The translations under genes and the position numbers were made by a program. The notes under the pieces were generated by a model, which was given only the letters and a program-made list of their open reading frames with translations, was not told where the DNA came from and did no database searches. From positions 62,001 through 126,000 of the forward strand of contig NZ_JAHKKS010000001.1 in the NCBI RefSeq assembly GCF_019737615.1: DNA of 64,000 bases, in the 5' to 3' direction. Below are positions 7,598 through 8,638 of the stretch, one piece after another. Source of the DNA: Sphingobium xanthum (GTDB lineage Bacteria > Pseudomonadota > Alphaproteobacteria > Sphingomonadales > Sphingomonadaceae). Position 1 is the stretch's first letter, and each line of letters starts with the position of its first letter.

Positions 7598-7726
7598 ATG
7601 ACCGGTAAGTTTTTCGTCGCCGCGCTGCTGGGCGCCGCGCTCATTCTCTCGGGCTGCGCCACGGTCAAGGGGCTGGGCCGCGACATCGAATCGGTCGGTC
7701 AGGCCGGCGAAGACGCGATCAAATAG
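7598..7726 (+). CDS. Entericidin A/B-like small lipoprotein (copy 2)
   Basis: This 42-residue lipoprotein is closely similar to the one at 5585-5716. The lipobox LSGC is followed by CATVKGLGRDIESVGQAGED. Only a few positions differ (GL for GA, E for Q), so this looks like a recent duplication. A very strong terminator follows at 7843-7886. The expected role is as a stress-linked envelope lipoprotein. Confidence 0.85.
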   Translation: MTGKFFVAALLGAALILSGCATVKGLGRDIESVGQAGEDAIK

Positions 7727-7842
7727 AAACACTTCGTCGCATTTTGCGGGAACGGATCGGCGCGGCGGGCATTCAGTCCGGGTGTCGCGGCCCGATCGTC
7801 TTCTTGGTTGGCGTGGGCCGCTGCACACCCGCTTTGAATTGA

Positions 7843-7886
7843 AGCGGCGCGGTGCCCTCCGAAAGGGCGCCGCGCCGCTATTTTTG
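7843..7886 (+). terminator. Strong rho-independent terminator
   Basis: AGCGGCGCGGTGCCCT (7843-7858) pairs with AGGGCGCCGCGCCGCT (7864-7879) across a 5-base loop with a single G-U pair, followed by ATTTTTG. It ends the entericidin copy 2 transcript. Confidence 0.9.
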
Positions 7887-7935
7887 TTTGTAGCTTGGAG
7901 TCCCGCCAGCGTGCGACGCATCGTGCAAGGCGGAT

Positions 7936-8083
7936 CGACATTCAGATGATGACGTGCCGGAGTCGGAGACGGCCGGAGGCCAACGTGGTGGCTTTGGGTG
8001 ACCCGGAGCGCAGCGTACTTATGTACGTGAGCACCGGAAGCTCCCAAAGCCGCCATTTGCAGGCACGTCAGCGCTGAATGTCG
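7936..8083. repeat. 148-bp nested palindromic element, possible structured RNA or MITE-like repeat
   Basis: Four concentric inverted repeats share one axis. They are CGACATTCAG (7936-7945) with CTGAATGTCG (8074-8083); TGACGTGCC (7950-7958) with GGCACGTCA (8062-8070); GTGGTGGCTTTGGG (7985-7998) with CCCAAAGCCGCCAT (8043-8056, two G-U pairs); and CGTAC/GTACG (8014-8018 and 8023-8027) around loop TTAT, with CCGG/CCGG (8003-8006, 8034-8037) between. The whole folds into one long interrupted arm. It lies in a 360-base gap between a terminator and the end of a minus-strand gene. A 60-codon plus-strand ORF crosses it but has no RBS. Confidence 0.75.
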
Positions 8084-8089
8084 GCCGGC

Positions 8090-8638
8090 TTAGCGGCAGA
8101 CCACCTCGCCGCGATCCAGCTCGCGACCGATCAGGCCGCCACCGGCCGCACCCAGCACCGCGCCCAGGATGGACGAGCGGCCACGGTCCAGCTCGTTGCC
8201 GATCAGCCCGCCCAGCGCCGCACCGATGATGAGGCCGGTCGTGCCGTCCGAACGGCGGCAATAATAGCGGTCGTCATAGCCGCGATAGATGCGGGTCTGG
8301 CGGTTCACGCGGATCGGATCATAGCCGCCACGATAATAGCGATCGGCATAATAGCCCCGATAGCGCGGGTCCGGCCGGTTATAGTCATAGGCATAGACCA
8401 CGCGCGGACGCTCGCGCACCACGACCACACGGTCCGGGCGGTGATCGCGGCCACGGCGATAATCGCTGCGGCGGTCGTCATGGCGATCATGCTTCCAGTG
8501 CTTGTCATGCCCACGGCCGCGGCCATTGTTATGACCCGGGTCGGCAAGAGCCGGCGTCGCGGCGAGGCCGCCGATCACCGTCGCGCCCAGCGCCAGAGCG
8601 GTGATGCTGTTCTTGAGAGCCTTGTACATCTGTCTCAC
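8090..8638 (-). CDS. RcnB-like, glycine-zipper periplasmic or envelope protein
   Basis: This 182-residue exported protein has a signal peptide ending ATPALA near residue 32. A long His/Arg/Asp/Tyr-rich region follows (HDKHWKHDRHDDRRSDYRRG and repeated RYRGYYADRYYRGG). The C-terminal glycine-zipper segments are TTGLIIGAALGGLIGNEL and SILGAVLGAAGGGLIGREL. The type is common in sphingomonads and is usually annotated as RcnB family or glycine zipper 2TM. Metal binding by the His-rich part and membrane association by the zipper are inferred. Confidence 0.8.
   Translation of the reverse strand: MRQMYKALKNSITALALGATVIGGLAATPALADPGHNNGRGRGHDKHWKHDRHDDRRSDYRRGRDHRPDRVVVVRERPRVVYAYDYNRPDPRYRGYYADRYYRGGYDPIRVNRQTRIYRGYDDRYYCRRSDGTTGLIIGAALGGLIGNELDRGRSSILGAVLGAAGGGLIGRELDRGEVVCR

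Follow-up and report, generated by a model that had tools for sequence, protein, structure and literature searches.

The palindrome at positions 7928-8091 of the window (the whole 64,000-nucleotide stretch of Sphingobium xanthum DNA analyzed here) is best explained, with a probability of roughly 0.8, as a copy of a non-autonomous palindromic MITE that has the ends of IS427-group insertion sequences, inserts at YTAR with duplication of the TA, is placed at stop codons, has covarying arms and a conserved tip, is moved in trans, and has one strand that is selected to fold. The TA duplication, the shared ends, the stop-codon placement, the covariation, and the strand bias were all observed. The transposase group, the insertion into stop codons, and the distribution across the class are points beyond the sequence-only reading from which this analysis started.

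That reading had described a nested palindrome spanning 7936-8083, with four arm pairs on one axis. A direct check of the sequence found all four arm pairs, and the palindrome is real, but the element is larger than first reported, since pairing, with some mismatches, reaches 8 bp farther out on both sides. A covariance-model match to the window copy covers 7926-8093 (113.6 bits). The claim that the arrangement is far beyond chance was borne out by RNA folding of 7920-8100, which gave −99.4 kcal/mol compared with −67.7 ± 4.3 kcal/mol for dinucleotide shuffles (z = −7.3), with none of the 200 shuffles equaling it. In the outermost of the reported arm pairs, CGACATTCAG (7936-7945) is matched with CTGAATGTCG (8074-8083), and the third pair has 14 base pairs, two of them G.U. 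The reading had left nearly no unpaired linker except for two short internal stretches; these linkers are not empty, as the left one contains two small hairpins. Likewise, the reported CGTAC/TTAT/GTACG tip is present (CGTAC at 8014-8018 and GTACG at 8023-8027), but it additionally has CCGG/CCGG and GC/GC pairs flanking a GCA/GA internal loop. The features of the element and its surroundings are as follows.

7928-8091, plus strand: whole palindromic element, a degenerate copy of the family and a long-arm variant with two extra hairpins (palindrome extent and covariance-model match).
7928-7945, plus strand: left terminal inverted repeat AGGCGGATCGACATTCAG, 16/18 identical to the IS427-group insertion sequence end GGCCGGATCGACATTCAG.
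8074-8091, minus strand: right terminal inverted repeat AAGCCGGCCGACATTCAG, with 14/18 identity to the left end and pairing in the fold.
7950-7958, plus strand: second arm TGACGTGCC, whose partner lies at 8062-8070 (sequence and fold).
8062-8070, plus strand: partner of the second arm, GGCACGTCA (sequence and fold).
7962-7981, plus strand: two small side hairpins, GTCGGAGAC (7962-7970) and GGCCGGAGGCC (7971-7981), belonging to the longer variant only (fold; variant in the aligned copies).
7985-7998, plus strand: third arm GTGGTGGCTTTGGG, whose partner lies at 8043-8056 (fold).
8043-8056, plus strand: partner of the third arm, CCCAAAGCCGCCAT (fold).
8000-8041, plus strand: conserved tip GACCCGGAGCGCAGCGTAC-TTAT-GTACGTGAGCACCGGAAGC, with the GCA/GA internal loop and an invariant G.U pair (near-invariant in 37 copies).
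8090-8092, minus strand: TAA stop codon of the convergent gene, abutting or overlapping the right end of the element (ORF 8090-8638; the same gene end is found at element-free orthologous loci).
8090-8638, minus strand: convergent neighbor gene, a 182-aa ORF with a glycine-rich C-terminal part, given for context only (orthologue in many genomes of the genus).
7842-7889, plus strand: intrinsic-terminator-like hairpin with a T run, outside the element and after the small ORF 7598-7726 (sequence).

The small ORF upstream of the element is lipoprotein-like. The hairpin that follows it is G+C-rich, has a weak match to the Rfam sbcD family (26.7 bits, below threshold), and looks like an ordinary intrinsic terminator. 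The coding capacity of the element consists only of mechanical overlapping ORFs, and most annotated records have either no gene at this position or the 3' end of a neighboring gene. For the window copy, orthologous element-free loci exist in two genomes (G033, locus L088; G132, locus L108) and have diverged too far for the exact junction to be read; we infer that this copy is an old, degenerate member of the family whose flanking TA copies have decayed.

Many dispersed copies, one of the checks that the sequence-only reading had proposed, were found. A BLAST search of the genome itself gave 13 places, and a search with a covariance model built from 37 copies resolved 12 full copies and one remnant. 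Within the genus, 55 of 61 sampled genomes have a match; in the wider family, where one genome was taken per genus and the S. xanthum genome was included, matches occur very unevenly, in 15 of 61 genomes. One genome, from another genus (G100), has 33 matches. The MITE copies are about 144 to 168 bp long. Two weak matches in the class-wide model search (L377 and L380) were false positives on inspection. No Rfam family matched 7928-8091 at E values up to 1 or the elements in five loci of other orders, and the literature and Rfam searches turned up no description of the family; part of it may already bear a name, as Bru-RS and RIME were compared by description.

How the element inserts is seen from its flanks and from filled and empty sites. 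In the aligned copies, the ends read Y-TA-GG...CC-TA-R; the TA is kept at both ends in 93 of 175 copies, 84 of which have the form YTA...TAR. Orthologous filled and empty sites were taken from closely related Sphingobium plasmids. At one of them, the empty site CCT-TA-GC (L279) corresponds to the filled site CCT-TA[GGGCC...GGACC]TA-GC (L147), an exact TA duplication; at another, the single TA of C-TA-G in L282 is present on both sides of the element in L150, again exactly. Two more sites (L148 with L275/L276 and L149 with L277/L278) fit CTAA or CTAG targets with one base differing, while a pair involving a more distant plasmid (L284/L151) was too diverged to judge. Therefore, insertion occurs at YTAR with a 2-bp duplication of the TA, which answers the earlier suggestion to look for a target-site duplication, and presence or absence among such closely related plasmids suggests fairly recent movement. 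From the filled and empty sites together with the TA duplication, it follows that the element is a MITE: its copies are dispersed, the duplication is matched by empty sites, the ends are shared with an autonomous insertion sequence, and coding capacity is lacking. The miniature-transposon-like origin that the sequence-only reading had offered as one of its three options, beside a structured RNA and an RNA-coding palindrome inserted between genes, is thus strongly supported by the dispersed copies, the 2-bp target-site duplication, and the orthologous empty sites.

The autonomous partner was recognized by its ends. One insertion sequence (L363), 852 bp between its TA copies, has overlapping ORFs at 766-1170 and 1023-1553 and a match to DUF4096 (PF13340), and its ends, GGCCGGATCGACATTCAG, are identical at 18/18 positions to both ends of the element copy L036. 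With a length of about 850 bp, two overlapping ORFs, DUF4096, and a 2-bp duplication, it belongs to the IS427 group of the IS5 family. A second insertion sequence end (GGGATTGTGGGGATTCA, from L360) matches both ends of an S. xanthum copy (L265) at 17/18 positions, and the ends of these IS5-family DUF4096 elements lie at YTA...TAR. When MITE ends were compared with IS427-type ends, 255 of 350 matched at no fewer than 13 of 18 positions, as against 2 of 350 for shuffled ends and 1 of 350 for IS630 ends. These matches suggest that IS427-group transposases recognize the borrowed ends and would move the element in trans, with different copies probably carrying ends that match different insertion sequences. 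In the S. xanthum genome itself, no matching autonomous insertion sequence was found; its single DUF4096 insertion sequence has different ends, so its copies of the element may be relics. Nor could a partner be found for the ends of numerous copies that diverge strongly, such as the 20 that were inspected among the 33 in G100. Compared by eye, the core of the element does not resemble the interior of the insertion sequence, and the element is thus no simple deletion derivative of it. Among 78 insertion sequence loci, one (L335) carries the element, at about 1667-1862 with ends GGGGCTGTGGGGATTCAG, in or beside a DUF4096 transposase gene; here, the passenger has landed in an insertion sequence of the type thought to move it.

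Two other kinds of mobile element were weighed against an IS427-group partner. A TA duplication is a hallmark of the IS630/Tc1-mariner family and of RUP-type elements, and it was this duplication that first pointed to IS630; a MITE of that family is nevertheless very improbable, since the ends (mostly GAGC...) that could be located for 15 IS630-type elements of the genus resemble those of the element no more closely than shuffled sequences do, IS427-type ends match at up to 18/18 positions, and several copy-rich genomes are without any match to a DDE_3 transposase. We consider it slightly less probable still that the element is a REP or REPIN moved as single-stranded DNA by a RAYT (Y1 HUH) transposase. 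The genome does have one Y1_Tnp gene, and both the one-strand folding bias and the symmetrical hairpin would suit such a system. HUH transposases, however, make no target duplication, and the TA duplication seen here contradicts that mechanism; moreover, the ends are those of a DDE-type insertion sequence, and the element is about 150 bp long, whereas REPs are 20 to 40 bp (PMC3733652).

Copies of the element lie mostly at the 3' ends of genes. With genes called by a codon-usage score, so that the context counts are approximate, convergent genes flank 83 of 169 elements compared with 35 of 346 other neighboring gene pairs, while divergent genes flank 9 of 169 elements compared with 95 of 346 other pairs. 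Under a stricter test, 83 of 174 copies have a neighboring gene that ends in a stop codon made up of the duplicated TA and the element's first base; as background, the corresponding overlap was found at 82 of 443 YTAR sites of these loci, and insertion sequence copies showed it in 6 of 33 cases. The element has the stop at its right end in 69 cases and at its left end in 24. The filled and empty sites described above illustrate the outcome: in L147/L279, insertion turned a TAA stop into TAG, and in L150/L282, a TAG stop was restored as TAG. Insertions into stop codons would survive because the protein is left unchanged, the stop being regenerated from the duplicated TA and the first base of the element. 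The L363 insertion sequence has the same placement as the MITE, as it sits in the TAG stop (716-718) of an outer-membrane-efflux-like ORF at 38-718. An identity as an intrinsic terminator was ruled out for the element, since no U run follows the hairpin: the 10 nucleotides past the element contain on average 1.6 and 1.9 T on the two strands.

The arms of the hairpin change in sequence while keeping their pairing. In a MAFFT alignment, 97.4% of the cells pair, and this falls to 36% when the partners are slid by one column. Two-sided changes were found at 33 of 55 pairs, and none of 500 shuffles reached any of the five measures used. The compensatory changes that the sequence-only reading had named as a check are therefore abundant, and they include the inner arms (helix 5, 9 of 17 pairs), far inside any transposase end. 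We also counted mismatched pairs in the outer stem, using 151 distinct copies, with the strand set by the core: G.U occurs 138 times and A.C 45 times, kinship among the copies being ignored in these counts. Position by position, G.U exceeds A.C at 12, ties with it at 4, and falls below it at none, and the 58 non-sphingomonad copies show 46 G.U and 18 A.C, with kinship again ignored. Transcription-coupled mutation was rejected as the source of the excess, which does not differ with gene direction: 16 versus 4 for genes oriented with the element and 45 versus 11 for genes oriented against it. Double-stranded or cruciform DNA predicts equal numbers of G.U and A.C, so an excess of G.U on one strand favors a single strand, RNA or single-stranded DNA, over a duplex or cruciform. 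From these sequence comparisons, the pattern suggests that selection acts on a folded RNA or a single DNA strand. We propose that one strand is under selection for its ability to form the hairpin, most likely at the RNA level within a read-through transcript, and that in transcripts at gene ends the folded strand may have a role in stability, processing, or shielding. The structured-RNA option in the sequence-only reading accordingly gains indirect support from the covariation and the one-strand G.U bias.

Two further explanations were weighed. If the palindrome were a host structured RNA family, such as an sRNA or a 3'-UTR element with vertical inheritance at fixed positions and no mobility, the strong covariation, the one-strand G.U bias, the conservation of the tip over many orders, and the 3'-end location would all be accounted for. 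Presence and absence at orthologous sites with a TA duplication, many dispersed copies with unrelated neighbors, and ends identical to insertion sequence ends make this account quite unlikely; as a sole account it is contradicted by the empty sites, and it survives only for the activity of the folded strand after insertion. The opposite view, purely selfish DNA whose palindrome is kept by the matching of transposase ends and by homogenization of the arms while the folded strand is functionless, fits the MITE anatomy and the behavior of 67 off-consensus copies, in which the left and right ends agree with each other at 14.2/18 positions and with the consensus at only 8.6 to 8.9/18, so that the two ends change together. 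We regard it as rather unlikely, since it does not explain covariation through the inner arms, a tip conserved over many orders, an excess of G.U on one strand only, or an enrichment at stop codons above that of insertion sequences with the same target.

ERIC, Correia, and RUP are known palindromic MITEs of this kind; the present family differs in its IS5/IS427 partner, the insertion into stop codons, and the structured core found across the class, with the comparison to Bru-RS and RIME made by description only. To our knowledge, neither the mover nor the function is known for most bacterial palindromic repeats. In the present case, a likely mover can be named and tested, and exact empty sites exist. 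The IS427 group includes IS711 of Brucella, which is 842 bp long with two overlapping frames and duplicates the TA of YTAR (PMC2266754), and insertion sequences of Paracoccus, which are 832 to 865 bp long, mostly with 2-bp repeats and in some cases with two overlapping frames (PMC3281130). The element resembles this group in its YTAR target, its TA duplication, and terminal repeats that match a sphingomonad insertion sequence at up to 18/18 positions (PMC2266754, PMC3281130), but it differs in having no transposase gene, a palindromic core that was not seen in the insertion sequence, and a length of about 150 rather than about 850 bp. With ERIC, Correia (NEMIS), and RUP it shares an intergenic location, a length of 100 to 200 bp, a single long hairpin, terminal repeats, and TA ends (Table 1 of PMC2229807); its tip sequence, alphaproteobacterial range, and stop-codon sites set it apart, and RUP has been assigned to IS630 (PMC2229807), whereas the partner here is of the IS5/IS427 type. 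Bru-RS1 and Bru-RS2 of Brucella are likewise alphaproteobacterial intergenic palindromes, of 103 to 105 bp and associated with IS711 (PMC2266754, PMC2267715), but they are described as hot spots for IS711 insertion and not as carriers of IS711 ends, a comparison that rests on their description. RIME and the AB/C motifs of rhizobia (also compared by description) and CIR of Caulobacter are alphaproteobacterial intergenic palindromic repeats with mostly unassigned functions (PMC2573895, PMC2229807); CIR RNAs contain GANTC and consist of two arms with a linker between them (PMC2229807), while the present element is a single hairpin. REP and REPIN sequences with RAYT are also palindromic, dispersed, and intergenic, but the present element is longer and has a TA duplication and the ends of a DDE-type insertion sequence. 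Insertion into a stop codon that is then regenerated is a neat route to harmlessness for a mobile element, and the anatomy makes it testable whether palindromes between genes survive purely as selfish DNA or through what their folded strand does at the 3' ends of genes.

That anatomy splits in two: the ends go with the transposase, and the conservation of the core reaches far beyond that of any of them. A tip of about 45 nucleotides is retained across a range from sphingomonads to rhizobia; the arms diverge in sequence but remain complementary. Among the matches listed, the exact tip pattern occurs in Mesorhizobium, Phyllobacterium, Devosia, Brucella/Ochrobactrum, Agrobacterium, Stappia, and Thalassospira, and also in Asticcacaulis, Acidocella, and MAGs labeled Rickettsiales. 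Most inspected copies with the tip pattern fold as the same long hairpin with quite different ends. In G100, the copies (L235-L254) have GAGACYGTTTGAGAAAT-like ends, and in 4 of the 20 copies read by eye TCA is found on both sides, possibly a TNA duplication made by a different IS5 subgroup. This suggests, as a proposal, that one core has used the ends of different IS5-family subgroups. More tentatively, and as a possibility that we would not yet call probable, a structured-RNA core present in much of the Alphaproteobacteria may have swapped its ends repeatedly (IS427-type with TA in most copies studied, GAGAC-type with a possible TNA in G100), hitchhiking on whichever IS5-family transposase is present and being kept at stop codons through an activity of the folded strand at the 3' ends of genes.

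Three smaller observations concern individual copies and the core. The tip pattern also occurs, with typical sphingomonad MITE ends, in a record titled Bacillus sp. 2B10 (L429), an assembly that is probably contaminated or mislabeled. In the family consensus, the asymmetric loop of GCA opposite GA is used twice per hairpin and is strongly conserved, in the tip (8008-8012 / 8029-8032 in the window copy) and, in most copies, in the inner arm as GCC-GA-AAATGG / CCATTT-GCA-GGC; it is possibly a tandem G.A motif or a protein-binding site. Finally, copies at the same insertion site can differ internally (L147 and L281, L149 and L285, L150 and L286, in pTom plasmids): one variant has a tip about 24 bp longer, with an extra hairpin TTGAAGCGAGTCACGCGCCTCGCTTCAA in place of GGAG, which suggests either gene-conversion swaps between copies or loss of the extra hairpin.
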